This document shows positions 5,289-61,011 of a DNA stretch of 64,000 bases, piece by piece. Position 1 is the first letter of the stretch. Every line of letters starts with the position of its first letter. The position numbers and the translations under genes are program-made. The DNA is from Desulfococcus multivorans (GTDB lineage Bacteria; Desulfobacterota; Desulfobacteria; Desulfobacterales; Desulfococcaceae): positions 460,001 through 524,000 of the forward strand of contig NZ_CP015381.1 of the NCBI RefSeq assembly GCF_001854245.1, in the 5' to 3' direction. Under the pieces are notes generated by a model. It worked only from the letters and a program-made list of their open reading frames with translations, ran no database searches and was not told where the DNA came from.

Positions 5289-6572
5289 ATGGCATTCAAG
5301 CAATGTTCGTCCCTGCTGGCGGATCTCATTCAGGCCGGGGCGGAGAAAAGATGGAAGATGGAATACAAGGGCATCGTCAACACCGGCGATACCTTCGGCG
5401 GAAGGGCGGTGGGCCCGGCTGCCTGGCAAAGCAAGGACAAGGCATTCGTCCTGTTGATGTTCCGGGAGGATGCGGTCTGCGAGTACGACCTCCTGCAGAC
5501 GGACCCTGAAAGCACCGTGGAGATGGTGGATTTCATGGGGAGCTACGGCCATGCGCCGGACGAGCTCCTGGAGGCCACGCGGGTCGCCTTCACGGCCAAC
5601 GCGGCCTATGCGGCCCCACCCCCGGACACCACGCCCCGGGAGATCTTCTATGCCGTGGCCGGACACTGCGACGCCGAGGGCGTCGGCGGTGCGTTCGAAG
5701 CGGCGTCCGCCAATCCCGAGGGGCAGCTCATCACCCTGGGCCGCACCGAGGCGGCCGGCCTGCTCCGGTCCGTTGTCTTTTTTGAAAACGTTCAGCTTCC
5801 CAAAAAGCCCGTTGCCTCGGCCCGGCTCAAGTTCACGGCGGACGGCGGGGAAGCCCTGGTCCGGGACCTGATGACCGTCACCGAATGGACCGGGAGCGAC
5901 TACGTCGCCTTGGGGGAATGGGAGAACGGCATGTGGAAGATCTCCGAGGGGGGCATCGACCTGAACGGGCTCGCCCCCCAGCTCGTCCTGGACGGGGTGA
6001 CCCACTTCAGGATCAGCGTGGACCCCGTTGACAACGGCGGGGGCGGGATCTGGATCACCGTCAACGACACCGGGGGGCAGCCGGTCGGGAGTCTCTTCAC
6101 CGAGGATCCGATTACCGCGCCCGCGACCTTCCTCGTGGAATGCAGCCCCATCGGCGAGGGCCGGATTCTGGGTCACGTCAACATCAGCTTCAACAGCGCC
6201 GAGACCCATTCGTGGTGCACGGATCTCAAGGCCGTCGCCCGGACCGCGGGCAAGACGGAGGACCCCCTTGTCGCGCACATCGGCATCACCCCGAACCCGG
6301 CGTTGCCCACCGGGCAGAGCCAGCGGGCCGCGATCCTGGCGGGGCAACGGGCAATGCGAACCCACTGGGACCTCACCCAGGCCTGGGCCCCGGGCGCGGC
6401 GGTGCAGTCCCCCAACTTCGCGCCCATGCTCAACGCGCTCCTCACGGACAGCGCCTACGAACCCGGCCGGAACCTGGCCGTCGTCATCGAGAGCCGGTTC
6501 CCGGGAAAGACGGCGGTAAACATCGACCGCCGGTGCCGGGCCGGAAGCGATATCGTGCTGAAGATCAACTGA
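5289..6572 (+). CDS. 427-residue hypothetical protein, possibly virion-related
   Basis: Starts behind GGAGG (5276-5280). The protein looks soluble, beta-rich and without cysteine clusters, signal peptide or known catalytic motifs. The N-terminal third (MAFKQCSSLLADLIQAGAEK, then MEYKGIVNTGDTFGG) is charged. The central part has repeated beta-strand-like segments (PVASARLKFTADGGEALVRD, HFRISVDPVDNGGGGIWITV). Strong GC-rich coding bias gives a long opposite-strand frame (4932-6581) that is only a shadow. Position between a terminator and a small membrane protein in a phage-like module suggests a structural or host-interaction role, but I do not recognise the family. Confidence 0.6.
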   Translation: MAFKQCSSLLADLIQAGAEKRWKMEYKGIVNTGDTFGGRAVGPAAWQSKDKAFVLLMFREDAVCEYDLLQTDPESTVEMVDFMGSYGHAPDELLEATRVAFTANAAYAAPPPDTTPREIFYAVAGHCDAEGVGGAFEAASANPEGQLITLGRTEAAGLLRSVVFFENVQLPKKPVASARLKFTADGGEALVRDLMTVTEWTGSDYVALGEWENGMWKISEGGIDLNGLAPQLVLDGVTHFRISVDPVDNGGGGIWITVNDTGGQPVGSLFTEDPITAPATFLVECSPIGEGRILGHVNISFNSAETHSWCTDLKAVARTAGKTEDPLVAHIGITPNPALPTGQSQRAAILAGQRAMRTHWDLTQAWAPGAAVQSPNFAPMLNALLTDSAYEPGRNLAVVIESRFPGKTAVNIDRRCRAGSDIVLKIN

Positions 6573-7400: not shown

Positions 7401-7559
7401 CGCTCGGATTTGGAGACGGCGGTAAAAAAATGGGATTCGTTTGGCGTATTGCCTATTTTTCACTGAAGCGGGCTGCGTTTCAGTTGGAATGGAACGAAAG
7501 GGGAAATGCCCGAATGCCGCCTCAATATCCGAGTATCCGATAAACATTGGAGGTGCCGA

Positions 7560-8477
7560 TTGGCTGTACCGGATTTTCAATCATTGATGCTGCCCATACT
7601 CAAATTCGCCGCTGACGGCAACGAGCATTCACTGCAGGCAACCCGAGAGGCGTTGGCTAACCGGTTAGGGCTTTCACAGGAAGATCTTGACGAAAGACTG
7701 CCAAGTGGAAGGCAGACCACTTTTGCAAACCGGGTAGCATGGGCCAAGGCCTATCTCACACAGGCAGGTGTGCTGGAATCTCCCAAAAGGGGGATGTTTC
7801 ACATATCCGACCGTGGACGGAAAGTTCTGGCGGAAAGTCCGGATCGAATTGATATCAAGTACCTTGAGCGTTTTCCTGAGTTTCAGGAGTTCCGGCAGGC
7901 GAGCAACAAAAATCGCACCGATAAAGTGACGCAGACAAATGACAAGGAAACAAGCCCCACAACGCCGGAGGAAACGCTGGAACAGGCATATCAGCAACTG
8001 CGCGACGAGGTTGCCAATGAACTGCTTCACCTCATCAACGGGAATAGCCCCGAGTTTTTTGAGCGGTTGGTGGTACACTTGCTCGTCGCCATGGGCTATG
8101 GCGGTTCGGTCAAAGAAGCGGGGAAAGCTACAAGAAAAACCGCAGATGAGGGCATAGACGGCGTCATCAAGGAAGATCGCCTCGGCCTCGATGCCATATA
8201 CCTCCAGGCGAAAAGATGGGAAGCGGTTGTCGGCCGTCCCGAAATACAGAAATTTGTCGGTGCGCTGCATGGCCAACGTGCAAAGAAAGGCGTCTTCATC
8301 ACAACCAGTCGCTTTTCAAGGGAAGCACTCGACTATGTCGGACAAATTGATCCGAAAGTTGTCTTGATTGATGGAGCCGATCTTGTCCAGTTGATGATAG
8401 ATCACGGGGTCGGGGTCAGTTCGGCAGCCGTTTACGAGGTCAGGAAGGTTGACACAGATTTCTTTATCGAGGAGTGA
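7560..8477 (+). CDS. mrr: Mrr-type restriction endonuclease (type IV)
   Basis: 305 residues, close to the 304 of E. coli Mrr, and collinear with it. Start TTG at 7560 was chosen because GGAGG (7549-7553) sits six bases before it and it gives the family N-terminus (LAVPDFQSLMLPILKF). Residues about 1-90 are the winged-helix Mrr N-domain (RVAWAKAYLTQAGVLESPKR). Residues about 155-290 are the PD-(D/E)xK nuclease: FFERLVVHLLVAMGYGG, the acidic DEGIDG and the QAKRW lysine, then KKGVFITTSRFS. It cleaves modified foreign DNA in known members. It is driven by the R3 promoter upstream. Confidence 0.9.
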   Translation: MAVPDFQSLMLPILKFAADGNEHSLQATREALANRLGLSQEDLDERLPSGRQTTFANRVAWAKAYLTQAGVLESPKRGMFHISDRGRKVLAESPDRIDIKYLERFPEFQEFRQASNKNRTDKVTQTNDKETSPTTPEETLEQAYQQLRDEVANELLHLINGNSPEFFERLVVHLLVAMGYGGSVKEAGKATRKTADEGIDGVIKEDRLGLDAIYLQAKRWEAVVGRPEIQKFVGALHGQRAKKGVFITTSRFSREALDYVGQIDPKVVLIDGADLVQLMIDHGVGVSSAAVYEVRKVDTDFFIEE

Positions 8478-8685
8478 CCCCTATCTCTATAACAAGTTTC
8501 AACAGCTACAGGCCGATGATCGTGAGGCATCCCCAACCGGCCGTTGCCATGCTTCGTGATGGGCTTCAAAATCGATGTGCCGACGCCACTTGCGGTCAGT
8601 TTACTGGTGGCTAACTCTTAAACGACTTTTTTGAACTTATTTTAATTACGATCAATCATAGGTGCTATGTGAAGGAAATCGAAAC

Positions 8686-12937: not shown

Positions 12938-14643
12938 ACCAGTCTATCCAACCTATCGTCTAAAAGGATTGCGAGGTATTCGACGACCTCGTGCCAATGA
13001 CGAGGGTCGGATGGCATAATCACCACAGGTGCGTCCGATAATTCACGCACAACATTCGTTTCCTCAGCATATAAAGAACTGGCGGCTACCAACCCCTGCA
13101 GAATTGGCAAATTTGGGATGCGAGCCCCTGCCAGAACATTTCTGTGGAATCTCATCGCGCTCGTTGCAGATTCAGAAATACCTTCCCAAAAGATTTCCTG
13201 ATTGGTACCAGCAGTGTTGATACCCCAAACGATGAGTACGTGATTTCTGTTGGGAGATTCGCCCAATGGCCGCACCACAAGATAGAGGTGTCCTCCGGTC
13301 CGGCTCAGGCTTTGGGTCAGAATATGTTCGCTTGCCTCATCCGGGTGCACAACTTCCAGGATAGCGATGGAACGTGGTGTCCCGTTGGCGATCCTTTCAA
13401 TGACAAATGGACCGGGCTCGGACCCGCCCCGAGTGCGACTGCCGAGTATTTGTTCGCGAGTCACATGAAGGGACGAGCCTATCACCTTTCGGATCCGAAT
13501 GCCGTTCTGTGGCGGCTTCAACCCTTCGCGTTCGAGATGGACAATAGCAAGATTCATAAGCAGCCGGACGATGTCCGCCCAGGTCCGGGCTTGCCAGTCC
13601 CAGAAGCGGTCTTCGTCTTCTTCCCGGCGCAACAGGCGGCAGTACCACGCCCAAATCTTGCGGTAGCGTAGATCGTTTTGGAGAACATAATTAGGCCGGA
13701 CTCCAGCCCTGGCCTTGGGTACCCCCTCAAAATCCGGATGCTTGCCTGCATCTACACATATTTCTCGAAAACGCCGCACGTCCCGCGCCCGCTTGGAATC
13801 CATGAACTGCGCATTGATCTCCACCTCGTTTGTAATATAACGAAGAGACTCTGCATCGCAACGGTGTATAAAATCTTTGAGCACGCGGTTTTCCAGCACG
13901 TCAAAAGATTCCCTGCGCACTACGGCCAGCAATTCCTGCCTGCTGCCGCCCTTTTCCGCCATGTTGGCGCCAGGTTGGCGCACAAACCACTGTAAACAAC
14001 GGACGTCCGTCTCACATATACGGTTGATTCGCTGCATGTTGCGCTCCCGCAGGAGAATCCGCCGCATTCCCTGAACCGTTCCAGATAAGCCGGCGCTCAT
14101 CTCCTCGGCAATACGCACGATCAAAGAAAGACGAGGCTGTTGTATATCATTCGATTGTTGTTTGAGAAATTCCAGAACAGTGTTCCAGGGAATCATGCCC
14201 CCTTTTGACTGTCGGTTGGTCTTGTCATCCAGCAGATCATCAAAGAATTGTGACCATCCAAGAACCATGCGTGCCAGAAGGCTTTCCGTCTTGCCGTCGG
14301 CTGTAGTTCTGCGCTGTGCTCCCTTGGCTTCGATTGTAATATTATAGCGCCTTCCGTTGGAGAATATCATCATCGCTCCTTGACCATGACCCGAGTGTGA
14401 AAGAATGCCATGAGGCGTTTCATACACTTCAGTCCCGTCCAAAAAGGGCGGCCCTAAGGGAACGAATTTTTCATGCCGTACAGCAAGCAAAACTTGGGCA
14501 CCGCTCATCACGGAGAGCACTGGGGAACCGAAAAACGGCAATACGACACCGTCGTTCGTGGCGGGAACAGATTCTTCCTCGACATCCACAGACCAGGGCC
14601 AGTGGTGAAAACATACTTCAATGGGCGCCGGCATCTGAGCCAT
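12934..14643 (-). CDS. DUF2357-containing McrC-like protein
   Basis: 569 residues. The central part (about 200-330: RLSLIVRIAEEMSAGLSG, RQELLAVVRRESFDVLENRV, YVLQNDLRYRKIWAWYCRLL) matches DUF2357, the middle region of McrC-type partners of McrB ATPases; the invariant F-E-N-R-x-x-K-F-like segment appears here as FDVLENRVLKDF. A PD-(D/E)xK nuclease usually follows. Here the C-terminal strand reads RSIAILEVVHP, with no clear lysine after the acidic residue, so nuclease activity is uncertain. It lies three bases after the McrB-like gene and overlaps the Hsp70-like gene, so all three are translationally coupled. Confidence 0.75.
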   Translation of the reverse strand: MAQMPAPIEVCFHHWPWSVDVEEESVPATNDGVVLPFFGSPVLSVMSGAQVLLAVRHEKFVPLGPPFLDGTEVYETPHGILSHSGHGQGAMMIFSNGRRYNITIEAKGAQRRTTADGKTESLLARMVLGWSQFFDDLLDDKTNRQSKGGMIPWNTVLEFLKQQSNDIQQPRLSLIVRIAEEMSAGLSGTVQGMRRILLRERNMQRINRICETDVRCLQWFVRQPGANMAEKGGSRQELLAVVRRESFDVLENRVLKDFIHRCDAESLRYITNEVEINAQFMDSKRARDVRRFREICVDAGKHPDFEGVPKARAGVRPNYVLQNDLRYRKIWAWYCRLLRREEDEDRFWDWQARTWADIVRLLMNLAIVHLEREGLKPPQNGIRIRKVIGSSLHVTREQILGSRTRGGSEPGPFVIERIANGTPRSIAILEVVHPDEASEHILTQSLSRTGGHLYLVVRPLGESPNRNHVLIVWGINTAGTNQEIFWEGISESATSAMRFHRNVLAGARIPNLPILQGLVAASSLYAEETNVVRELSDAPVVIMPSDPRHWHEVVEYLAILLDDRLDRLV

Positions 14644-14645
14644 CT

Positions 14646-16712
14646 TTATCTCCGCGGCACGCCGTGCCAGAGGAACAGGCTGGTGTTGCTCTTTTCTTTT
14701 GCCTCATTGAATGCATCAATGAGTTCTCCATCCCCCAATTCAACGATAATATCTTGTATCTGCGTCAAGCATTCAGCTGCATGGGGTTCCGATACATCAA
14801 GGCCTCTCAGTTTGGGTAGAATCTTCTGCTCAATCTGATCCGCAAACGCCAATTTATAGACTTCTCCTCTTCCGATCCTGGGATAATTAGCAACATAGGA
14901 ACGGATGGCCTTTTCCACGCGGTAGCCAAACGGTCTGCCTATTTTTTGGAGGGCTGAATTTATTGCCTCCGTCCAGCCCGCAACTGTTCGGCTCCAAGGA
15001 GATTGTTCGTCGAATCCATGAATCCAGCTATTCCAGACGTCATGTGTCAGAAATCCGTCCGCCTTTTCAGTTTCGTGGGACTCTTGTTTTTGCGTCAGTT
15101 GGCTTGCAGGCTTTCCGAAGCGAAGCACATTGGAGCGGTCGAGAACTTTGTCCGAGAGACTTTGTGTGGTCTCATCCTCGTTCATAGTGCCAACAAAGAG
15201 CACGTTACCGCCGACCCAGAGACGTGATGCCTCGGTGCCGCTCGGACCAAGGTCCAGTACGATTTCAGCCCGCTTACGATCGGATGGATCCGTCGGATCT
15301 TTTACGTCGCGGCGCAATTCCAGCTTGGATAGGAATTCACTGAAGTAGTATTCTGTTCGAGCGAGGTTCATTTCATCCATAAGGACCATAAGCATTCGAT
15401 CTTTGCTAACCCCACCGGTTCCCATGAATGGATGGTATTGATCCATACGAACCAATGCTTGTGCCATTTCAGTGGCCTTGTATTGCTTTTCCAGATAATT
15501 ATAGAACCCAAACATATCCTGGGGCGAATCCCAGCGTGGCTGAACAGCCATAACCAGCAGATGCATGCCCATGAGTTGTGCATACTTGATAGGCAGCAAT
15601 GTTTTGCCCGTGCCGGAGACGCCGGCCATAACGGTCAGGGGATTGATGTCCGCACATTTGAGCGATGTATGGAAGGAGTTTACCACGCGATCAGGGAAAA
15701 CCAGAGCTTCCCTCACAAGATGATCCTTGAATTTTTGCAGGGCCAGAACCTCGTCCATCTGCAGACGTTTTGGGGGGAATTCTTCGGGATTGAGACAGGC
15801 CGGTGCCACCAAGAGATCGTTGAAGGATTTGGAGGGGTTTTTCGTGCCTCCGGCATCGTTTTCCGCCATCAAACGGTTTCGTTCAATTTCCAGACGGCTA
15901 ACCTCTCGTTCTAGATAGGCCCGTCTCTCCTCAACTTGGATCATTTGTTCACGTTTCTGGTCGAAGTTTCGCAACGTCTTTTCCACTTCAGCCAACTCTG
16001 CTTTTTTCTGCTCTACTATTTCGGAAAGTTCGGCCCCAAGGATTTCCTTCCGCGCACAGATATCTCGAAGGTTCTGTTCCTTCTTTGCTAAGGATTGAAA
16101 ACGAGCCTCGGAATCGGAGAGCTTCTCCCGTAGGTCTCGCTTGCGGGCCTGGATTTCATCAATATCTTTTTTTAATCTATAGAATTCCATCATCATGGTC
16201 GTTTTGGTTTCTTCCTTTTGTCGCACCTCCTCATTCAGGGCTTTGATCTTCTCCCCCAAAATTTTGAGTTCTTCTGATGCAGCGTCCCGTTGGTCTATGG
16301 CAGCCTGAATCTCTTCGGTAATCTGACGAATCTTTCCCACATGTTGATGTTTTTCCAGCTCCAGTCGTCCCACCTCATCCCTGAGTGACTGATTCTGGCT
16401 ATCCATAGCCTGCACTTTCCGAGTCAGTTCATCCAGCTCAAGGCGCAGTTTTTCATGTTCTGCCCGTTCGGCGTCAACACGCAGCAATTCTTCTTTCTGC
16501 GCTCTGATATGGTCGCGGACCGCTTCATAATCCGCTTCGAGAAGTGTTTTTTTTGCCATGAGATCCGCCACACTCCCGCCCAGTTCCGTGATTACGGAAA
16601 TTCTGCGGTGATTGAATAGGTACAGCAGAAAAACAATTATCAGAACGGACGTGCCTATCGCTGCGGCGAGAAACCACGCAATTGTGGGAATAATGGTAAT
16701 GGTAGTATCCAC
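14646..16712 (-). CDS. Membrane-anchored coiled-coil McrB-type AAA+ NTPase
   Basis: 688 residues in three parts. Residues about 7-33 (IIPTIAWFLAAAIGTSVLII) are a membrane helix. Residues about 45-285 are a long coiled coil rich in E, K, R and L. Residues about 320-540 are an McrB-type AAA+ domain: Walker A GVSGTGKT (364-371), Walker B LMVLMDEMNLA (441-451), and GTMNEDETTQSLSDKVLDRS (508-527), equivalent to the MNTADRS signature for GTP specificity in McrB. McrB proteins form hexamers that power the McrC nuclease. The membrane anchor plus coiled coil replaces the DNA-recognition domain of classical McrB. This is the CnuB-like core of the CoCoNuT class. Confidence 0.85.
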   Translation of the reverse strand: MDTTITIIPTIAWFLAAAIGTSVLIIVFLLYLFNHRRISVITELGGSVADLMAKKTLLEADYEAVRDHIRAQKEELLRVDAERAEHEKLRLELDELTRKVQAMDSQNQSLRDEVGRLELEKHQHVGKIRQITEEIQAAIDQRDAASEELKILGEKIKALNEEVRQKEETKTTMMMEFYRLKKDIDEIQARKRDLREKLSDSEARFQSLAKKEQNLRDICARKEILGAELSEIVEQKKAELAEVEKTLRNFDQKREQMIQVEERRAYLEREVSRLEIERNRLMAENDAGGTKNPSKSFNDLLVAPACLNPEEFPPKRLQMDEVLALQKFKDHLVREALVFPDRVVNSFHTSLKCADINPLTVMAGVSGTGKTLLPIKYAQLMGMHLLVMAVQPRWDSPQDMFGFYNYLEKQYKATEMAQALVRMDQYHPFMGTGGVSKDRMLMVLMDEMNLARTEYYFSEFLSKLELRRDVKDPTDPSDRKRAEIVLDLGPSGTEASRLWVGGNVLFVGTMNEDETTQSLSDKVLDRSNVLRFGKPASQLTQKQESHETEKADGFLTHDVWNSWIHGFDEQSPWSRTVAGWTEAINSALQKIGRPFGYRVEKAIRSYVANYPRIGRGEVYKLAFADQIEQKILPKLRGLDVSEPHAAECLTQIQDIIVELGDGELIDAFNEAKEKSNTSLFLWHGVPRR

Positions 16713-27867: not shown

Positions 27868-28891
27868 GTCTGAACCATTGCCCCGATTCGAGGGGATTGA
27901 GACAAATGACTGCGGCAGAAACAAGGGCGGTTGTTAAATTTTGTCTGAACCATTGCCCCGATTCGAGGGGATTGAGACGGTATTGGCCTCATTACCGGGT
28001 CTGATCAAACGTGGGTCTGAACCATTGCCCCGATTCGAGGGGATTGAGACCTTTGCTTAAGCCCATATCGAAGACAAAAATCTTTTACGTCTGAACCATT
28101 GCCCCGATTCGAGGGGATTGAGACGTGGAAGGCTGGAAACGTCAACCGAAATAACCTCTGTCTGAACCATTGCCCCGATTCGAGGGGATTGAGACAGAGT
28201 ATTAGGATAGCCTCGACTTTCTGGAACCTATGGTCTGAACCATTGCCCCGATTCGAGGGGATTGAGACTTTCATTAACAGTTTCCTTCCGTTTTCGGAAA
28301 ATTCTGTCTGAACCATTGCCCCGATTCGAGGGGATTGAGACTTTCGTCCCGTGCCTTCACAGCACGGGCAAATTTCATAGGTCTGAACCATTGCCCCGAT
28401 TCGAGGGGATTGAGACAGGATCAAGCCGAGAATACGCTCGGCCTCCATGAAAGTCTGAACCATTGCCCCGATTCGAGGGGATTGAGACAAAAGTCTAATG
28501 CTCCCAAATTCAAAGAAATAAGATGGTCTGAACCATTGCCCCGATTCGAGGGGATTGAGACTTGTTTTTTAGCCATTGTCACCATCATTCAGTTTGTGTT
28601 TGAGACTGCTTGCGGCCCTGAACGACACAGCTACTTTAGTCTGAACCATTGCCCCGATTCGAGGGGATTGAGACTTGCTCCAACCAGATATGCGCGGATA
28701 TCCGAGAGGCGTCTGAACCATTGCCCCGATTCGAGGGGATTGAGACTGGATTCTGCCATGCAGGGACACTGGCAGCTCTTCCAGTCTGAACCATTGCCCC
28801 GATTCGAGGGGATTGAGACCTGCTCGATGCTGTAATCGAACATGCTTCCGCCATAGTCTGAACCATTGCCCCGATTCGAGGGGATTGAGAC
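27868..28891 (+). CRISPR. CRISPR array 2 (14 repeats, 13 spacers)
   Basis: Fourteen identical 36-bp repeats (start GTCTGAACCATTGCC, end GGGGATTGAGAC) at 27868, 27943, 28015, 28089, 28160, 28233, 28306, 28381, 28453, 28526, 28639, 28711, 28784 and 28856. Twelve spacers are 35-39 bp; one (28562-28638) is 77 bp and contains a 9-base repeat tail. The repeat has a CCCC/GGGG stem and ends in ATTGAGAC, a crRNA-handle-like end, so transcription is to the right. The repeat differs from array 1, so two CRISPR types or subtypes are implied. No cas genes are present here. Confidence 0.98.
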
Positions 28892-41916: not shown

Positions 41917-43461
41917 TTATTTAAATCTGATGGACGGGATTTTTTGAGAAACGGGTAGTGCTTCTTTCCCGTTTTTATACTTGGCGATAAAGATATCGAC
42001 TTGACCAGCGCTCGTCAGCGCGGTTTCGTTGGCTTCCCCCGCGCCAAAGACCGCTGCATTCCAGAAACCACCCGTCACATAAATATTTCCCCATCTATCT
42101 AAAGCGATGTCGGTGCCGGTATCAAGGCTGAAGCCGCCGGCCTGTGTTGCCCACACCAGGCGGCCATTGCGGTCATACTTGGCAATAAAGATATCAGCAC
42201 CATCGCCGTCACTACCACTGGGGTTCGCGCTCGTCAGCGCGGTTTCGTTGGCTTCCCCCGCACCAAAGGTCGCTGTGCCCTGAAAATCACCCGTCACATA
42301 ACTATTTCCCCATTTATCTACAGCGATGCCCGAGCCTCCATCCTCATAGCCGCCAGGACCGCTGGTCTGTTTTGCCCACACCAGGCCGCCATTGCGGTCA
42401 TACTTGGCGATAAAGATATCCTGGTAACCAGCGCTTATCAGCTCGATTTCATTGGCTTCTCCCGTACCAAAGGTTGCCGTACCCGCGAAAAAACCCGTTA
42501 TATAACTATTTCCCCATTTATCCACAGCGATGGCGGAGCCTCTATCCCAATCAATATCGCCGGCCTGTTTTGCCCAGATCAAACGGCCATTGCGGTCATA
42601 CTTGGCGATAAAGATATCACCATCACTCGTCGTCAGCTCGGTCTCATTGGCTTCCCCTGCACCAAAGGTTGCTGTATCCATGAAATCACCCGTCACATAA
42701 CTATTTCCCCATTTATCTACAGCGATGTCGGAGCTATAATTATAGCCATTAGTACCACTGGCCTGTTTTGCCCACACCAGGCCGCCATTGCGGTCATACT
42801 TGGCGATAAAGATCTCCCGATAACCAGTACTCGTCAGCACGGTTTCATTGGCTTCTCCCGCACCAAAGGTCGCTGTGCCCTGAAAATCACCCGTCACATA
42901 ACTATTCCCCCATTTATCCACAGCTACAGCGTTGCCGGAGTCACTATCCCAATCAATACCACCGGCCTGTTTTGCCCAGATCAAGCGGCCATTCCGATTA
43001 TACTTGGCGATGAAGATATCCTGATAACCAGTACTCGTCAGCTCGGTTTCATTGCCTTCTCCCGCGCCAAAGGTTGCCGTACCCATGAAATGACCCGTCA
43101 CATAACTATTCCCCCATTGATCTACAGCGATGCCGGAGCCTCTATCCCAATCAATACCACCGGCCTGTCTTGCCCACACTATGCCGCCATTACGGTCATA
43201 CTTGGCGATAAAGATATCACTATCAATATTACCAGCGCTCGTCAGTTCGGTTTCATTGGCTTCTCCCGCACCAAAGGTCGCGGTACCATCGAAATGACCC
43301 GTCACGTAACTATTTCCCCATTTATCTACAGCGATGCAGGAGTCACCATCCCCATCAACGCCACCGGCCTGTTTTACCCAATCCAGCTCCTGAGCTTTCG
43401 CTATCCCGCCCATAAAAGACAAGAACGCGATAAAGGTAAAGATAAGAATTGTATGCCTCAT
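41917..43461 (-). CDS. Secreted seven-unit SBBP beta-propeller protein
   Basis: 514 residues. A signal peptide covers residues about 1-23 (MRHTILIFTFIAFLSFMGGI then AKA-Q). Seven repeats of about 70 residues follow, each with W-A-K-Q-A-G, an I-A-V-D-K-W-G-N-S-Y-V-T-G core, T-A-T-F-G-A-G-E-A-N-E-T, and DIFIAKYDRNG. This is the SBBP repeat and seven units make one closed propeller. Copies are close at DNA level, so they arose by recent duplication. A c-di-GMP-I riboswitch and a terminator lie in its leader, so it is probably made in response to c-di-GMP, as for surface or biofilm proteins. Confidence 0.85.
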   Translation of the reverse strand: MRHTILIFTFIAFLSFMGGIAKAQELDWVKQAGGVDGDGDSCIAVDKWGNSYVTGHFDGTATFGAGEANETELTSAGNIDSDIFIAKYDRNGGIVWARQAGGIDWDRGSGIAVDQWGNSYVTGHFMGTATFGAGEGNETELTSTGYQDIFIAKYNRNGRLIWAKQAGGIDWDSDSGNAVAVDKWGNSYVTGDFQGTATFGAGEANETVLTSTGYREIFIAKYDRNGGLVWAKQASGTNGYNYSSDIAVDKWGNSYVTGDFMDTATFGAGEANETELTTSDGDIFIAKYDRNGRLIWAKQAGDIDWDRGSAIAVDKWGNSYITGFFAGTATFGTGEANEIELISAGYQDIFIAKYDRNGGLVWAKQTSGPGGYEDGGSGIAVDKWGNSYVTGDFQGTATFGAGEANETALTSANPSGSDGDGADIFIAKYDRNGRLVWATQAGGFSLDTGTDIALDRWGNIYVTGGFWNAAVFGAGEANETALTSAGQVDIFIAKYKNGKEALPVSQKIPSIRFK

Positions 43462-43904: not shown

Positions 43905-44900
43905 TCACAATTTCCGGAGCTTAATGCTTATTGTATAGATGCCGCCATTGGGATCGGTCACAAACAGCGTGACCCGGTCCGAACCGCTCATCACAGCGGC
44001 AATCGGCGCACCGGGCGTACTGCGGCCCTCGGAAACGCCGGCCCAGGGTCCCCAACCGTCCTGAAGGCTGCCCGAAGCGGTGTAGATGCCGCCATTGGTA
44101 TCGGCCACAAACAGCGTGACCCGGTCCGGACCGCTCATCACAGCGGCAATCGGCGCACCGGGCGTGCTGCGGCCCTCGGAAACGCCGGCCCAGGGTCCCC
44201 AACCGTTCTGAGGGCTGCCTGAAGCGGTGTAGATGCCGCCATTGGGATCGGTCACAAACAGCGTGACCCGGTCCGAATTGCTCATCACAGCGGCAATCGG
44301 CGCACCGGGCTTACATCGGCCCTCGGAAACGCCGGCCCAGGGTCCCCAACCGCCCTGAGGGCTGCCCGAAGCGGTGTAGATGCCGCCATTGGGATCGGTC
44401 ACAAACAGCGTGACCCGGTCCGAACCGCTCATCACAGCGGCAATCGGCGCACCGGGCGTACTGCGGCCCTCGGAAACGCCGGCCCAGGGTCCCCAACCGT
44501 CCTGAGGGCTGCCCGAAGCGGTGTAGATGCCGCCATTGGGATCGGTCACAAACAGCGTGACCCGGTCCGGACCGCTCATCACAGCGGTAATCGGCGCACC
44601 GGGCTTACTGCGGCCCTCGGAAACGCCGGCCCAGGGTCCCCAACCGCCCTGAGGGCTGCCCGAAGCGGTGTAGATGCCGCCATTGGGATCGGTCGCAAAC
44701 AGCGTGACCCGGTCCGAACCGCTCATCACAGCGGTAATCGGCGCACCGGGCTTACTGCGGCCCTCGGAAACGCCGGCCCAGGGCAGCAACCCATAAGGTT
44801 TGATCTGACCGGGCAGCAAGAAATAACCCATGAAAAGCCGAACGTCCTTCCCGGTCAGAATCAAACCTGAGTTCATGAAGCCCGGTTTTAAAGGAGCCAA
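43905..44900 (-). CDS. Six-unit lectin-like beta-propeller protein
   Basis: About 331 residues, made of six almost identical 49-residue (147-bp) units: WGPWAGVSEGR-[S/C]-[K/T]-PGAP, ITAVMSGSDRVTLFATDP, NGGIYTASGSPQGG. The pattern of one W-G-P-W and one N-G-G-I-Y-T per unit fits tectonin/PLL-type fucose-lectin propellers, which close with five to seven blades. No signal peptide is visible. The first ~40 residues (MAPLKPGFMNSGLILTGKDV) come from a dispersed hairpin element, so the true start is uncertain (ATGs at 44876 and 44831 are also possible). Confidence 0.7.
   Translation of the reverse strand: MAPLKPGFMNSGLILTGKDVRLFMGYFLLPGQIKPYGLLPWAGVSEGRSKPGAPITAVMSGSDRVTLFATDPNGGIYTASGSPQGGWGPWAGVSEGRSKPGAPITAVMSGPDRVTLFVTDPNGGIYTASGSPQDGWGPWAGVSEGRSTPGAPIAAVMSGSDRVTLFVTDPNGGIYTASGSPQGGWGPWAGVSEGRCKPGAPIAAVMSNSDRVTLFVTDPNGGIYTASGSPQNGWGPWAGVSEGRSTPGAPIAAVMSGPDRVTLFVADTNGGIYTASGSLQDGWGPWAGVSEGRSTPGAPIAAVMSGSDRVTLFVTDPNGGIYTISIKLRKL
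44788..44897. repeat. Hairpin element, second copy
   Basis: 44796-44813 (AGGTTTGATCTGACCGGG) pairs with 44850-44868 (CCCGGTCAGAATCAAACCT). The whole block repeats about 41708-41810. Confidence 0.85.
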
Positions 44901-54296: not shown

Positions 54297-54689
54297 GCAA
54301 CCCTCTTTTTGTGGTTGTTGTCCATTTCGTCAACGCGTCCTGATCCATCATCCTGTTGAATCACGCCGAGGGCGGATGCTGTTTTTTTCTTGACAAATGT
54401 TTCCCAATGTAATAAGCATTAGCCTGAGTTATACCAAGCAGTGTTCACTGCTAATAAAATAGACCACACAGAATATTTAGACAAGGGAAAATCTACCAGT
54501 AAAATTGCATCACGCGATGCTCTCTTGTTGCTTTGGTTTTTTTCTTTCTCCCCATCCACAACTCGCTGAACTTCAATATTCAATCACCCTGCATCGCGAT
54601 TCAAGCAGATCCATTTTTTAGTATTTTTGTGGTCCAGACAGACTGAATCCATAAAATTTAACATAGCCGTTTTACGGGTGGGGTCAGCC
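54297..54689. other. Gene-free divergent intergenic region
   Basis: AT-rich DNA between add and the aldo/keto reductase; must hold both promoters. No riboswitch or repeat was recognised. Confidence 0.5.
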
Positions 54690-55766: not shown

Positions 55767-56213
55767 ATGGAAATATCAGCATCTCAACAGGCGAATGAAT
55801 CAACGGGGTATACAGTCTTTCCGGAAGCCCCCGTGCATTTTCCCATTCCGGCATCGCTTGCGCCGTTTCCCCCGTATTTGCAGGCTGCCATTATAAAGGC
55901 CGTCGGAATATGCAAACCGCGGCCTGCTACCGATATCTGGTATCAGGATCGTGGAACCGGCTCGGTTTATGTCATTCGACACGGCATTCAATGGCAATTC
56001 AACAAAACGGCCAGTTTCATCTGGATGAAGCTTGGAAACGGAGTCACCGTGAAGGAAATTGTCGAGCAACTTTGTCGGGAGTACACGGAGGATAATGCGG
56101 AAGATATTGAATTTCAAACAGTTGAATTTGTGCTCCATGCCCTTTCCTATGGCGTCCTCGATATCGCGGAGGACGAGGAAGTCCCGCCTCCCGGAGAGCG
56201 GGCCGAAAGTTGA
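55767..56213 (+). CDS. PqqD-like RiPP recognition element protein
   Basis: 148 residues, start behind AGAGGAGAG. The central part (residues about 65-125: SVYVIRHGIQWQFNKTASFI, WMKLGNGVTVKEIVEQLCRE, YTEDNAEDIEFQTVEFVLHA) has the beta-hairpin and three-helix pattern of PqqD-type proteins: an N-x-T/A-x-x-x-I/L-W segment followed by T-V-x-E-I-V-E-x-L. These bind the leader of a precursor peptide and present it to a radical SAM enzyme. The N-terminal ~60 residues are an extension. The stop lies three bases before the next gene, so they are coupled. Confidence 0.8.
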   Translation: MEISASQQANESTGYTVFPEAPVHFPIPASLAPFPPYLQAAIIKAVGICKPRPATDIWYQDRGTGSVYVIRHGIQWQFNKTASFIWMKLGNGVTVKEIVEQLCREYTEDNAEDIEFQTVEFVLHALSYGVLDIAEDEEVPPPGERAES

Positions 56214-56216
56214 AAA

Positions 56217-57674
56217 ATGCCCTTGAATGATCAAAAATGCCGGCTCAAGGACAATCGATGCCGGTTCCCCCTGGCGTTTCAAGGTCTTGTGCCCGGAGAG
56301 CCGTTCAGTCTGAGGGTCGGGATTTATGCCAACTCGAATCTTCCCTGGCAGGAACCGGCAGGAATTTGGACCTTCGATATTTCTGATTGTTACGCCGAAG
56401 GTTTGGAAATCGATCTCTGGCGGCTCGATTTCTATTCCGTTCAGCTTCGTGCGTCAGCTCGCCGCCGGCTGGCGCGGGCATTCCGACGGTCTCAAGACAT
56501 ATCCTTATCCGCGTGGGCGATGTTTACCGTCGAGGTGTTCGGAAAAAACGGCGGAGTCCTCGGAACGATGAGAGTCGGCTTGTCCATTGCTTCCCATGAT
56601 CTGGCCGTGATGAACGAGCGATATCGATTGGCGGCCATTCCGCCGATTCAGTGGTTCTTCGTTGAATTGACCAACCGTTGCAACTATGCCTGCAGCTGGT
56701 GTCCCTCTTCATCAATGACAAGAAAACAGGGGAGGATGCCTTTCGAGCGTGTGCAATGGTTGTTTAAGGAAATTGCCGATTATCGATACCGTAATCCTCA
56801 ATTTTCGATGCACGCCGAGATCAAAAACCTGGTGTTCCTGCATGTCATGGGAGAACCGTTGCTGCATCCCCGCTTCTTTGAAATCCTTGAATACGGACAT
56901 AGCATCGGGCTTGATTTCTGCCTCGTGACCAACGCCAGCCTTCTCACCCCTGAACGGATCGACAGGCTGCTTGCCGGCGGGATCAGCAGCATCACCATCA
57001 GCCTCAATGTGCCGGACGGTTCACATTTTTCGAAGACCGGCGCTCCCCTTGCATATTCGGCCGTAATCAGCAGAATCCAGAATCTCATTCAGGAGAGATA
57101 CCGTCGAGGGAGCGATCTTCCCCGGATAGAAATTCAGATGCTGAATAGCAGAGGGGTTGCTCTGTCGGCAGCGCCCCTTGTGGAGGAGGCGTACCAGGTC
57201 GAGGACCAGCTGACATTCTGGTCAATGTTCGTGCGCCAACAGGAGCAAGCGCATCAGGTAATTTCTCATATACCCGATACCCACGAGGCATTGCGCGTTC
57301 GACAGGTTCTCGACCGCGTAACAAACGATCCCGATATTTATTTCGAGATCGGCAAGAATCTTTATGTTGTTTTTAAACGGGCGTGCAATTTCGGGAATAT
57401 ACTGCTTCCCGAGGGTTATCGTGTTATCGAGTCTGCCGAAGGGCGGTGCGCTTTTTTCAACGCCCACCGGACAATAGCTGTTCTCTGGGACGGCTCCTGC
57501 ACGTTCTGTTCACTTGATTATAATAATTCGGTCAATCTTGGGAATGTATTTGATGAAGGACTCGAAGGCATCTGGACCGGCAAAAGGATGAATCAAATCC
57601 GGAGATTGATGGAGCATGGCATTCTTTCAGAATCTCTGTGCCGCCGGTGCCAGGGCGAAGTAATCCGTGACTAA
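56217..57674 (+). CDS. Radical SAM/SPASM enzyme with an extra N-terminal domain
   Basis: 485 residues. Radical SAM cluster motif FFVELTNRCNYACSWC (C155, C159, C162), GEP motif VMGEPLLHP, then the SPASM-type end RCAFFNAHRTIAVLWDGSCT, FCSLDYNNSVNLGNV and ESLCRRCQG with several cysteines for extra iron-sulfur clusters. Residues 1-140 are a beta-rich domain with no match I know (VPGEPFSLRVGIYANSNLPW). Such enzymes modify ribosomal peptides by radical chemistry. It follows the PqqD-like protein directly and is its likely partner. Confidence 0.85.
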   Translation: MPLNDQKCRLKDNRCRFPLAFQGLVPGEPFSLRVGIYANSNLPWQEPAGIWTFDISDCYAEGLEIDLWRLDFYSVQLRASARRRLARAFRRSQDISLSAWAMFTVEVFGKNGGVLGTMRVGLSIASHDLAVMNERYRLAAIPPIQWFFVELTNRCNYACSWCPSSSMTRKQGRMPFERVQWLFKEIADYRYRNPQFSMHAEIKNLVFLHVMGEPLLHPRFFEILEYGHSIGLDFCLVTNASLLTPERIDRLLAGGISSITISLNVPDGSHFSKTGAPLAYSAVISRIQNLIQERYRRGSDLPRIEIQMLNSRGVALSAAPLVEEAYQVEDQLTFWSMFVRQQEQAHQVISHIPDTHEALRVRQVLDRVTNDPDIYFEIGKNLYVVFKRACNFGNILLPEGYRVIESAEGRCAFFNAHRTIAVLWDGSCTFCSLDYNNSVNLGNVFDEGLEGIWTGKRMNQIRRLMEHGILSESLCRRCQGEVIRD

Positions 57675-57701
57675 GGGCCGGCTTCGTGAAAGGAGAATCG
57701 C

Positions 57702-58988
57702 ATGACCGACGTGCTTCTGGTTGCCCCACCCATGCAGTCGCCCGCGGCGCAATCTTCGTTTAATGCGTTGTGTCCGCCGCTGGGCCTGGGCTATCTGGCC
57801 GCCTGCTTACTGAAAGAAGGCATTTCAGTTGAAATCGCGGATCTGAGCAAGCAGGCCGATCCCTGGGCTTTTTTAAGCCGAACAATTGAGAGGACTTCCC
57901 CTCCTTTCGTGGGAATCACCTGCGTCACCCAGAATTATGCCCTCGGGTTGAAAGCCGCCGGGGTCGTCAGGGCAAAGGCGCCCGGCGCCTTTGTTGCGAT
58001 GGGGGGACCGCACACAACGTATCGATATGAGGATGTCCTGGCCGAAAAGACTGTCGATGTCGTCGTGCGCTTCGAGGGAGAGAAGAGTGTGGTACAATTA
58101 TTTCATCATGTGGCGAACAAAGCGCCCGACCTCAATCTCATCAACGGCATCGCCTTCCGCGACGGCGACCGTGTCTTGAAGACACCCCATCGAAAACATG
58201 AGGAAAGTCTGGATGACATTCCATTTCCCGCCCGGCATTTGATGCCGATGGCGACGTACGGCCGCCCCGGCACGATCATGACAAGCCGCGGCTGCCCTTA
58301 TAAATGCATTTTCTGTATCTCCAGCACATACGAGGGAAATTACCGGATGCGCAGCCCTGAAAACGTCATCGCCGAACTCGTGATGTTGCGGGAAATCTGG
58401 GGTCTGAGAGAGATCTATTTCATCGATAACGTGTTTACCGCGAGCTCGGAAAGGGTTCAACAGATCTGCCGCCAACTTGTTGATTTAAAATTAGACATTC
58501 GTTTTCATTGCGTGTGTCGACTTGATTTGATTACCCACGAACTGGTGGAGATGCTGAAAGACGCCGGCTGCATCGGTATGGAGATCGGCGTGGAATCGGG
58601 CGATCAGGAAGTGATAAATTCGATGAACAAGCATATTTCCGTCAGCGACGTACTGCGGGCTACCGATATCGTAGTGGGGGCGCGAATTCAGCCGATGTTT
58701 ACATTTCAAATCGGTTCTCCCTTTGATCGACCGGAATCCGTTGCGAAGACCCAAGCGCTGGCGGCTCAGGTCCGCGCCAAGGGAGCGATTGCTTTTGTTT
58801 CAATCATGACCCCATTTCCGGGCACGCCTCTTGCCGACCGCGCCCAGGAATTCGGCATCCATATTCACGATGTTCCCTGGAGTGAATATCGGACATCCAA
58901 TCCGATTACCGACACTCCCCATCTGAAACGGCAGGATTTTCGCCGGGCCCTTTATGAGGAAGCGATACGTTCCGGCGTCATCTATTAA
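57702..58988 (+). CDS. B12-binding-domain radical SAM enzyme
   Basis: 428 residues. N-terminal cobalamin-binding Rossmann domain: MTDVLLVAPPMQSPAAQSSF, CPPLGLGYLAACLLKEGISV, VGITCVTQNYALGLKAAGVV and VAMGGPHTTYRYEDV (the D-x-H-x-x-G signature is not kept, as in many class B members). The radical SAM motif is SRGCPYKCIFC (C198, C202, C205). DAGCIGMEIGVESGDQEVIN and TPFPGTPLADRAQEFG are typical of this superfamily. B12 radical SAM enzymes methylate unactivated carbons or do rearrangements. It begins 27 bases after the first SPASM gene. Confidence 0.88.
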   Translation: MTDVLLVAPPMQSPAAQSSFNALCPPLGLGYLAACLLKEGISVEIADLSKQADPWAFLSRTIERTSPPFVGITCVTQNYALGLKAAGVVRAKAPGAFVAMGGPHTTYRYEDVLAEKTVDVVVRFEGEKSVVQLFHHVANKAPDLNLINGIAFRDGDRVLKTPHRKHEESLDDIPFPARHLMPMATYGRPGTIMTSRGCPYKCIFCISSTYEGNYRMRSPENVIAELVMLREIWGLREIYFIDNVFTASSERVQQICRQLVDLKLDIRFHCVCRLDLITHELVEMLKDAGCIGMEIGVESGDQEVINSMNKHISVSDVLRATDIVVGARIQPMFTFQIGSPFDRPESVAKTQALAAQVRAKGAIAFVSIMTPFPGTPLADRAQEFGIHIHDVPWSEYRTSNPITDTPHLKRQDFRRALYEEAIRSGVIY

Positions 58989-59085
58989 CGCATGTCCCTT
59001 TACAAGTCGCATCTCTCGCGCTGATGTGACGAAAGAGATGCTGTCTGTGGATCGACACCAACTCAAACGGCTTTTTGGGGTATTC

Positions 59086-60156
59086 ATGGAAACAAGTTCA
59101 CTGCCCATTCAGGCGGCGCCGCCGGATCACCTGTACATCGAGTTGACCAACCAGTGTAATCTTAGATGCAAACACTGTTATCTCGACGCCGGTCCGGGCG
59201 GCAACCACACCCTGTCTTCTTCTCTGGTGCGCCGGGCATTGCATGACTTCGCAACCTTCGGTGGTATGTCTGTAACCTTCAGCGGCGGGGAACCGCTGTT
59301 GCACCCTGATTGGCCGGCGCTGGTCGGATATGCGAGGTCGCTGAATCTGGTGACAGCGGTGGTGACCAACGGTCTGCTGCTCGACTCAGCCGCCGTGAAA
59401 GATTTGAGAGAATTAGGAGCAACGGTAACGCTCAGCCTGGATGGCGCGAGCCGCGAAACCCATGAATCGATTCGAGGCGCCGGATCCTATGCCAAAGCGC
59501 TGGCCGCTCTGGATCAACTTGAGGCGTCTCACTCCAGAGATCAGGTGATTATCGCATTCACGCCGACCAATACCAATGTGGACGATTTGATACCCTTGGC
59601 GCGGCATATTTCTGAACGCGGGTTTTACAGACTGTATGTTTCACCGCTTGAGGATCGCGGCCGCAGCCTGGTTCATGAAGACAAATTGTCCCTTGACGAT
59701 GAATCCAGGATGCGTCTGCTCATTCAAATCGCATTGCTGAACACGGGTCCGTATCGATACATGGATATTGACTGCGGACATTTGAATTATTTTTTTCACC
59801 GATTGCTGACAGGGGAAGGTGATCTCGGAGATCCGATCGAGGGGACCCTGAGGATCAATCCTGATGGGGATATCTTTTTGACCGCTTATTCGGATGATCG
59901 CCGATTCCTGCTGGGTGACCTGCTGAACGGAAGCATCCGCCAAGCGTGGCAATCCGACGCGACACGATTTCTCCTGAATGCGGTTGATCAGCGCCGTTTG
60001 GGTTTGCCGGATTGTAATTCCTGCCCTTATTGGATCATTTGCGGCGGCGGAAGTCCGGTTCGAGCATATATGAGGCACGGCAGTTTCCAGAAGCCGGATG
60101 AATTTTGCCGGGCCAAACAGATGTTTCTTGACCGTTGGTTTTCCGCTTTGCGCTGA
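59086..60156 (+). CDS. Radical SAM/SPASM peptide-modifying enzyme
   Basis: 356 residues from the ATG at 59086; an ATG at 59038 is possible. Radical SAM motif YIELTNQCNLRCKHCYLDAG (C24, C28, C31), then VTFSGGEPLLHPDW. The SPASM end is LPDCNSCPYWIICGGGSPVR with FQKPDEFCRAK. The order C-x-x-C-x5-C-G-G-G is the classical SPASM pattern of enzymes making thioether, carbon-carbon or epimerised peptides. The repeat protein gene starts 58 bases after its stop, so this enzyme is the closest partner of the putative substrate. Confidence 0.88.
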   Translation: METSSLPIQAAPPDHLYIELTNQCNLRCKHCYLDAGPGGNHTLSSSLVRRALHDFATFGGMSVTFSGGEPLLHPDWPALVGYARSLNLVTAVVTNGLLLDSAAVKDLRELGATVTLSLDGASRETHESIRGAGSYAKALAALDQLEASHSRDQVIIAFTPTNTNVDDLIPLARHISERGFYRLYVSPLEDRGRSLVHEDKLSLDDESRMRLLIQIALLNTGPYRYMDIDCGHLNYFFHRLLTGEGDLGDPIEGTLRINPDGDIFLTAYSDDRRFLLGDLLNGSIRQAWQSDATRFLLNAVDQRRLGLPDCNSCPYWIICGGGSPVRAYMRHGSFQKPDEFCRAKQMFLDRWFSALR

Positions 60157-60214
60157 GGAGATAACCCCGGCGTTCAAAGCAGAACGAATTCCATTTCAGA
60201 AAAAGGAGGAAACC

Positions 60215-60946
60215 ATGGAACAACAATCACAAAAATTTCAGCAGCCAGGGGGCTTCGGGTTTCCTTTTGGATACCCGGCAGGGGGTGTCCGGATGGGATA
60301 CCCGGCAGGGGGTGTCCGGATGGGATATCCGGCAGGGGGTGTCCGGATGGGATACCCGGCAGGGGGCGTCCGGATGGGATACCCGGCAGGGGGTGTCCGG
60401 ATGGGATACCCGGCAGGGGGTGTCCGGATGGGATACCCGGCAGGGGGCGTCCGGATGGGATACCCGGCAGGGGGCGTCCGGATGGGATACCCGGCAGGGG
60501 GCGTCCGGATGGGATACCCGGCAGGGGGCGTCCGGATGGGATACCCGGCAGGGGGCGTCCGGATGGGATACCCGGCAGGGGGCGTCCGGATGGGATACCC
60601 GGCAGGCGGCGTCCGGATGGGATATCCGGCAGGCGGTGTCCGGATGGGATACCCGGCAGGGGGCGTCCGGATGGGATACCCGGCAGGGGGCGTCCGGATG
60701 GGATACCCGGCAGGGGGCGTCCGGATGGGATACCCGGCAGGGGGCGTCCGGATGGAATCCTTGGCAGGGGGCGTTAGGATGGGATACCCGGCAGGGGGCG
60801 TCCGGATGGGATACCCGGCAGGGGGTGTCCGGATGGGATATCCGGCAGGGGGTGTCCGGATGGGATATCCGGCAGGGGGTGTCCGGATGGGATACCCGGC
60901 AGGCGGCGTCCGGATGGGATACCCCATTGGACGGATGTTTATGTGA
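60215..60946 (+). CDS. Repeat protein, putative multi-core RiPP precursor (24 x GYPAGGVRM)
   Basis: 243 residues, start at ATG 60215 behind a perfect AAAAGGAGGA. A short leader (residues 1-18, MEQQSQKFQQPGGFGFPF) is followed by 24 nine-residue units GYPAGGVRM and a final degenerate GYPIGRMFM. One unit (60755-60781) is ESLAGGVRM. Base differences between units (TAC/TAT, GGG/GGC, GGT/GGC) are all silent in this frame, apart from that unit, and would change residues in the other frames. So this frame is under selection. A PqqD-like protein and three radical SAM genes precede it in one run, so it is the likely modified substrate. A structural repeat protein is the alternative. Confidence 0.75.
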   Translation: MEQQSQKFQQPGGFGFPFGYPAGGVRMGYPAGGVRMGYPAGGVRMGYPAGGVRMGYPAGGVRMGYPAGGVRMGYPAGGVRMGYPAGGVRMGYPAGGVRMGYPAGGVRMGYPAGGVRMGYPAGGVRMGYPAGGVRMGYPAGGVRMGYPAGGVRMGYPAGGVRMGYPAGGVRMGYPAGGVRMESLAGGVRMGYPAGGVRMGYPAGGVRMGYPAGGVRMGYPAGGVRMGYPAGGVRMGYPIGRMFM

Positions 60947-60980: not shown

Positions 60981-61011
60981 CCGGTGGGCTGGGTTGCAGC
61001 CCACCGGTTTT
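60981..61011 (+). terminator. Rho-independent terminator after the RiPP-type cluster
   Basis: CCGGTGGGCT, seven-base loop, AGCCCACCGG then TTTT. Ten perfect pairs, 35 bases after the repeat gene. Confidence 0.85.

Follow-up and report, generated by a model that had tools for sequence, protein, structure and literature searches.

A candidate multi-unit RiPP pathway in Desulfococcus multivorans with three radical SAM enzymes, a PqqD-like protein and an aldo/keto reductase

Introduction

What do radical S-adenosylmethionine (SAM) enzymes act on when their genes run into one for a protein built almost wholly of a repeated nonapeptide? The question is raised by a locus in the 64,000-nucleotide stretch of Desulfococcus multivorans DNA analysed here (the window; positions 460001-524000 of a single contig of 4.46 Mb, NZ_CP015381.1). 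Six co-directional genes follow one another there, encoding an aldo/keto reductase (AKR), a PqqD-like protein, a radical SAM enzyme with a SPASM domain (SPASM1), a B12-binding radical SAM enzyme, a second SPASM-type radical SAM enzyme (SPASM2) and an open reading frame (ORF) of tandem GYPAGGVRM units, behind which lies a hairpin with UUUU. We conclude that the repeat protein is almost certainly the substrate of the cluster enzymes and that the cluster is very probably a pathway for a ribosomally synthesized and post-translationally modified peptide (RiPP), of a family that the libraries searched do not describe. The substrates of such enzymes are usually unknown, so that their functions are hard to find; in this case the substrate is marked threefold, by gene order, by a core left unchanged despite deep divergence and by the natural fusion of the repeat with carrier domain and reductase. 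A five-part orthologous cluster with a tandem-repeat ORF was found in three lineages, two of which share the same 9-mer.

Results

An earlier reading of the DNA alone (the sequence-only reading) had counted 24 GYPAGGVRM units in the repeat ORF. The number of tandem units stands, but only 23 of them are exact, the one at 60755 being ESLAGGVRM, and a degenerate GYPIGRMFM closes the protein. With a score of 1158 in Tandem Repeats Finder (TRF) the array is not due to chance, and the 16 substitutions that separate the exact units from their consensus are all synonymous in the frame of the repeat ORF. The protein itself had no match in Pfam or NCBIfam at an E value of 0.1, nor in PADLOC at 0.001.

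A second cluster was found in genome G184, which belongs to the same phylum and a different family, with the same six genes in the same order, ending in GYPAGGVRM repeats. By BLAST, the G184 proteins are 54% (AKR), 38% (PqqD-like), 58% (B12 enzyme) and 49% (SPASM2) identical to those of the window, and SPASM1 is 49% identical over residues 134 to 483. Between the window consensus and the six complete units of G184 there are 27 base differences, every one of them at a third codon position, and the peptide is identical. Because the unit differences are confined to third positions while the partner proteins have diverged, the 9-mer is, on this codon evidence, held by purifying selection. The units stand at two contig ends: contig C10 ends in four, the fourth cut by the contig end, and contig C11 in three, followed by GYPAGGPFGWR and a stop. 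The assembly break appears to lie inside the repeats, and we infer that the two ends belong together. Strong ribosome-binding sites were seen by eye ahead of the precursor in both the window and G184.

The opposite strand of the window array is open as well (60238-60927, minus strand) and would encode a near-perfect GYPIRTPPA repeat. The changes among the window units are all synonymous for this product too, but its frame was rejected because five of the six complete G184 units contain stops in it while the sense peptide is identical. Adjoining the G184 cluster, on the opposite strand (L039:6086-7603 and 7488-7971, minus strand), is an ORF that by eye resembles a radical SAM enzyme, preceded upstream by a pair of closely similar short ORFs (78 and 71 residues); together these are possibly a separate enzyme-peptide system.

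The third cluster, more diverged, lies on plasmid pRapFH23a of Rhizobium acidisoli, the sole record returned at an E value of 1e-40 when 72,556 plasmid records were searched (tblastn) with the G184 B12 enzyme. There a single ORF of 618 residues, counted from the annotated start, contains the AKR, 12 copies of the 14-mer NMAMSPRGAFAVTP and a PqqD-like domain, and it is followed by SPASM1, the B12 enzyme, SPASM2 and a small Fe-S-assembly-like gene. The five partner proteins are 25 to 45% identical; against the window the values are 31% for the AKR, 42% for the B12 enzyme, 32% for SPASM2 and, over the aligned parts, 31% for SPASM1, and the PqqD-like domain reached an hhalign probability of 97.4 in comparison with the window and G184 proteins. 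A ribosome-binding site and an in-frame ATG were seen by eye directly before the repeats, and a separate repeat-PqqD product is therefore possible. The small gene (14539-14850 of locus L105) overlaps the end of SPASM2 and matches PF01521 just above the cut-off; none like it was noticed in the window or G184 clusters, where no search was aimed at one. Behind the cluster, about 145 bases (approximately 14902-15050 of L105) match other rhizobial plasmid records, some of them in several places, and may represent a mobile or repeat element that borders an island. A pyroglutamyl-peptidase gene (15559-16185 of L105) lies on the opposite strand, about 1 kb behind SPASM2.

The sequence-only reading had tied the repeat protein to the enzymes by position. 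That link is strengthened by the same order and the same repeat in G184 and by the fusion in R. acidisoli, so that the repeat ORF stands beside or is fused with the enzymes in all three orthologous clusters. The only homologue of the repeat gene found (1 of 1, a small number) is not remote from radical SAM and PqqD-like genes but ends an orthologous cluster of AKR, PqqD-like, SPASM, B12 radical SAM and SPASM genes, and the more diverged R. acidisoli cluster has its own tandem repeat inside the AKR/PqqD-like ORF. A predicted RiPP recognition element is present throughout, as a PqqD-like protein recognised by Pfam in the window and G184 and as the fused domain aligned by hhalign in R. acidisoli. 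A minisatellite that came to stand beside an unrelated radical SAM operon would suit a window rich in tandem arrays (13 TRF rows, some overlapping). Nevertheless, the codon positions in the window and G184 units lead us to reject a minisatellite or a chance ORF; the exact units differ by synonymous changes only, G184 encodes the same peptide with different codons in the same place, and R. acidisoli carries an in-frame repeat between AKR and PqqD-like domain. This explanation is already contradicted, and we consider it extremely improbable.

Coordinates of the cluster are collected in Table 1. The earlier description of PqqD-like, SPASM1, B12 and SPASM2 genes lying head to tail, with the repeat ORF beginning 58 bases past the end of SPASM2 (60156 to 60215), agrees with the coordinates and the Pfam matches. 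The limits drawn at the time, 55767 to 60946, were too narrow, as they missed the conserved AKR at the head of the cluster, which is present in all three. This protein is an aldo/keto reductase by its match to PF00248, has a possible alternative ORF start at 54627 and keeps, in all three clusters, the residues D-Y-K-H, which we take to be the catalytic tetrad of these reductases. The radical SAM cysteines are likewise intact in all three. SPASM1 does have the unassigned N-terminal domain that had been pointed out, about 140 residues to which no Pfam model corresponds at an E value of 0.1; alignment-free structure predictions of low confidence (mean predicted local distance difference test scores of 48.7 and 39.3) give at most a suggestion that this part consists mostly of strands. 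SPASM2 is a radical SAM enzyme as described (PF04055), but only part of a SPASM domain is recognised (17.3 bits, cut-off 21.5; four cysteines are kept in the three homologues), and the start of the enzyme is most likely at 59086, because the homologues, as called by us and by the annotators, align from about there. Every listed NCBIfam match of the six cluster proteins (the best 25 for three of them) stays below its cut-off. A strong terminator had been proposed, and the hairpin agrees with it, although a consensus scan that demands five T did not list this one with four. Sigma-70-like consensus matches, one of which lies ahead of the cluster, are weak, with 8 observed and 4.5 expected.

Table 1. 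Features of the cluster in the window
Feature	Position	Strand	Basis or remark
Possible sigma-70-like promoter, TAGACA-16-TAAAAT	54478-54505	+	Consensus scan only; ahead of the cluster
Aldo/keto reductase (AKR), 320 aa	54690-55652	+	PF00248, E 3.5e-62; motifs DTADSYG, TK, LH
PqqD-like peptide carrier (RiPP recognition element), 148 aa	55767-56213	+	PF05402, E 2.5e-9, 37.8 bits (cut-off 23.4)
Radical SAM/SPASM enzyme 1 (SPASM1), 485 aa, CNYACSWC	56217-57674	+	PF04055, PF13186
B12-binding radical SAM enzyme, 428 aa, CPYKCIFC	57702-58988	+	PF02310, PF04055
Radical SAM enzyme 2 (SPASM2), 356 aa, CNLRCKHC	59086-60156	+	PF04055; start set by alignment
Repeat ORF, 243 aa	60215-60946	+	
Leader MEQQSQKFQQPGGFGFPF, 18 residues	60215-60268	+	Behind AAGGAGG
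24 tandem 9-residue units, 23 GYPAGGVRM and one ESLAGGVRM	60269-60916	+	TRF array and unit reading
Degenerate terminal unit GYPIGRMFM and stop	60917-60946	+	Unit reading
Hairpin and UUUU, probable terminator	60981-61011	+	GC-rich hairpin 60981-61007, -25 kcal/mol, z -4.9

Upstream of the R. acidisoli AKR, whose ORF likely starts with GTG at 8607 of L105, lie two TGT-N10-ACA boxes (8430 and 8448) and a -24/-12 site, TGGCACGAATAATGC, at 8510 with a 10/11 match; these consensuses are, we presume, those of the NifA box and the sigma-54 site. Single elements occur at chance level, the 25-kb locus having six such boxes and a second 10/11 site at 5697. The combined arrangement is above chance, appearing once among 1000 simulated sequences matched for length and dinucleotide composition, or about 1e-5 per 300 bp, for a pattern chosen post hoc. 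The arrangement suggests that the R. acidisoli cluster may be under NifA/sigma-54 control, that is, expressed in nitrogen-fixing nodules. In front of the AKR gene, a single box (54380) without a -24/-12 site is present in the window, and an 8/11 -24/-12 site without a box in G184.

The cluster is rare in the genomes covered. SPASM1 was searched in overlapping sets, namely 58 relatives, 395 phylum genomes, 148 relatives of G184 and 389 genomes of the window's class, and besides the window genome only G184 yielded the cluster. Candidates scored per genome numbered at most 4 in the sets of 395 and 389 and at most 10 in that of 148, and in the further sets named below at most 3 (398) and 8 or 9 (169, 179 and 178), so that misses are possible. 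SPASM1 had matches at an E value of 1e-12 in 51 of the 395 phylum genomes, the best after G184 at 5.7e-43; wide stretches were inspected for 9 of these 51 and short loci at most for the others. Among 46 genomes of its class, G184 alone has the repeat pattern. Samples of four further phyla (398, 169, 179 and 178 genomes, those of 169 and 178 being empty without a positive control) gave no cluster member; the two hits there (G914 and G1534) have no AKR or PqqD-like relative nearby. The cluster seems patchy, because the one genus mate of the window genome that was searched has no SPASM1 match at 1e-20. In an empty-site comparison, the upstream neighbour gene of the cluster was not found in any of five related genomes at 1e-40. 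IMG/VR and phages gave no member; 29 IMG/VR loci were judged by their weak scores only, and the empty answer to one pattern, which had a mistaken leading codon, tells little.

A scan for tandem peptide repeats took in 45 loci, the SPASM1 hits (several of them sharing a genome) and that of R. acidisoli; 33 are shorter than 5 kb. Such repeats were present in 2, the G184 and R. acidisoli clusters. The more distant SPASM hits of fifteen genomes, inspected over wider or short loci, were rejected as relatives of the cluster, having no AKR or PqqD-like relative by tblastn and no tandem peptide repeat (G058, G133, G098, G364, G438, G202, G315, G347, G067, G209, G415, G366, G240, G914 and G1534). Distant relatives of the B12 enzyme lie near SPASM1 hits in L026, L045, L046 and L111. 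Across 84,980 species genomes, the pattern GGxRM-Gxxx-GGxRM matched 17 times, never with the GYPAGGVRM unit, and all 17 peptides, judged by themselves, look Gly-rich or spurious. The window and G184 both conform to this pattern but were not among the hits, being either absent from the collection or left out, so that the scan lacked a positive control.

Other repeats lie elsewhere in the window. The array at 219-1178, its unit about 71 bases long, alternates a recurring segment of about 36 bases with variable ones and resembles clustered regularly interspaced short palindromic repeats (CRISPR), and the arrays at 28157-28416 and 28637-28891, which share the repeat CTGAACCATTGCCCCGATTCGAGGGGATTGAGAC of about 34 bases with a period of 72 to 73, are CRISPR-like as well (TRF and by eye). 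A 147-base unit is repeated 5.8 times with 95% matches at 43936-44783, near the repeat array at 42230-43387 (TRF).

Discussion

How might the six gene products work together? The PqqD-like protein would most likely capture the short leader and hand the tandem units to the three radical SAM enzymes, which may modify each unit repeatedly. The B12 enzyme would probably C-methylate an unactivated carbon, the candidates being Cbeta of an aromatic residue, as with ApyD and Tyr, or of Val, as with PoyC; an aromatic residue and a Val occur in each of the two unit types, and we rate methylation of the repeat protein by this enzyme slightly better than even. The two SPASM-type enzymes could introduce an oxidation or a side-chain crosslink, and the spacing Arg-x-[Gly/Ala]-[Tyr/Phe], common by eye to both units (RMGY and RGAF), is a weak hint of an Arg-aromatic crosslink. 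The AKR might then reduce a carbonyl formed on the way, a reduction of the peptide to which we give an even chance, and a short peptide would be released in many copies. We infer all of the chemical steps, the leader binding and the peptide release. The full scheme is tentative, and we put it a little short of even: a new class of RiPP, with three radical SAM enzymes and a reductase acting on each unit of a long tandem-repeat protein to give about two dozen methylated and crosslinked or oxidised nonapeptides, or one heavily decorated polymer, with NifA/sigma-54 induction alongside nitrogen fixation in a bean-nodule Rhizobium.

Several observations weigh against the RiPP reading. Just three clusters are known, a modified peptide has yet to be observed, and the three leaders show no clear resemblance. 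The R. acidisoli PqqD-like domain was recognised by comparison with the other two and not by Pfam. Because the repeat of this third cluster differs, being a 14-mer without Tyr, the modified residue cannot be read from conservation, and because a single synonymous base in one copy is all that distinguishes its 12 units, they say almost nothing on selection of the reading frame. Judged by annotation and eye, with no profile search, the co-directional genes in all three clusters include no protease, peptidase or transporter, so release would need other proteases.

The lack of a protease or exporter among these genes also fits a repeat protein that is modified in place and stays whole, as a long decorated polymer with a metal-binding, redox or structural role, instead of being cut as a multi-core precursor. 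The extreme uniformity of the units and the position of the R. acidisoli repeats inside a larger ORF favor such a polymer. However, the single Arg in each unit of either type would give other proteases a chance to cut, a pyroglutamyl-peptidase gene lies near the R. acidisoli cluster, and the authors of the TVG study think that TvgA encodes several small products (PMC9062424). We regard the polymer as a serious contender with a chance somewhat below one in two, and for release of the units as separate peptides we see the scales evenly balanced.

Whatever its fate, a repetitive substrate multiplies the mass shift, so that the chemistry of a B12 enzyme, two SPASM-type enzymes and an AKR could be read in one experiment, and the candidate NifA-type promoter in Rhizobium points to a biological setting, the nitrogen-fixing nodule.

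Comparison with known systems

The nearest models of the B12 enzyme are ApyD, BchE, HpnJ and PhpK, all below their cut-offs. ApyD is the best NCBIfam match of the window enzyme, which at 148 of 750 bits (NF050148) falls outside that family, and the second best, after BchE, of both homologues; the model of RiPP maturation radical SAM C-methyltransferases (TIGR03975) gave 94.6 of 281.85 bits. AprD3 is the reductase partner of AprD4, an enzyme with a sugar as its substrate. AprD4/AprD3 resemble the cluster in pairing a B12-domain radical SAM enzyme with a reductase and differ in the sugar substrate and in having no peptide or PqqD-like partner. AprD4 (6fd2) is also the best match of the B12 enzyme family in the PDB, and as this nearest solved relative by sequence is a small-molecule enzyme and the C-terminal part of SPASM1 matches BtrN, the enzymes might act on a cofactor or lipid while the repeat protein serves as a scaffold that clusters them through the PqqD-like domain. 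We hold this to be unlikely, since the closest PDB matches of SPASM2 are SkfB, the radical SAM protein 5wgg and anSME, all of which act on peptides or proteins. Moreover, PqqD presents the peptide substrate to PqqE (PMC8326336).

Among methyltransferases, ApyD modifies Cbeta of Tyr in a GYLYD motif, and PoyC methylates Cbeta of Val, per the title of a reference cited in PMC9062424. The apy pathway is unlike the cluster in that ApyD has its own RiPP recognition element and its partners are a P450 and an MNIO, and repeats have 0 occurrences in the text of that paper (PMC11117315).

Both PQQ and mycofactocin (MftC) share with the cluster a PqqD-type carrier and a SPASM enzyme, whereas the cluster scores below their cut-offs and has three radical SAM enzymes. 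For SPASM2, the mycofactocin model TIGR03962 gave 97.5 (window), 95.7 (G184) and 90 (R. acidisoli) of 265 bits and is the best NCBIfam match in the latter two, and the PqqD equivalog of the PQQ system (TIGR03859) gave 16.4 of 46 bits, so that only the Pfam family PF05402 applies. The precursors of PQQ and mycofactocin are small single-core peptides.

Scores for HxsB (62.5 of 370 bits for SPASM2) and ACGX (38.7 of 400 for SPASM1) were low, and the His-Xaa-Ser and ACGX motifs are absent from the repeat protein. Hxs and ACGX peptides are repetitive. Spliceotides (PlpX/PcpX) are excised at X-Tyr-Gly; in GYPAGGVRM the Tyr is followed by Pro, and the R. acidisoli unit has no Tyr. What the Hxs and ACGX systems have in common with the cluster is radical SAM enzymes paired with peptides that bear a short recurrent motif (Hxs is named in PMC9062424).

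The sequence-only reading had called a multi-core precursor unusual, which is fair, but repetitive radical SAM precursors are known: the TVGG repeats of TvgA from Halomonas anticariensis are modified many times, and up to six Asp-Cys repeats have been reported in such precursors (PMC9062424). In the TVG system (TvgA/TvgB), a radical SAM-SPASM enzyme acts repeatedly on short Gly- and Val-containing repeats, a likeness to the scheme proposed for the cluster. That system pairs a single radical SAM enzyme with a putative dioxygenase and two putative transporters (PMC9062424), whereas the cluster combines a B12 enzyme and two SPASM-type enzymes with a PqqD-like protein and an AKR, with no dioxygenase or transporter family among its six proteins, and its unit, GYPAGGVRM, differs in sequence and length; the two are set apart here by description. 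No description of this gene set or of the GYPAGGVRM unit was found in the literature searched, which included few subscription journals. Repetitive precursors of radical SAM enzymes were already known, and we class the GYPAGGVRM cluster as very probably a new RiPP family.

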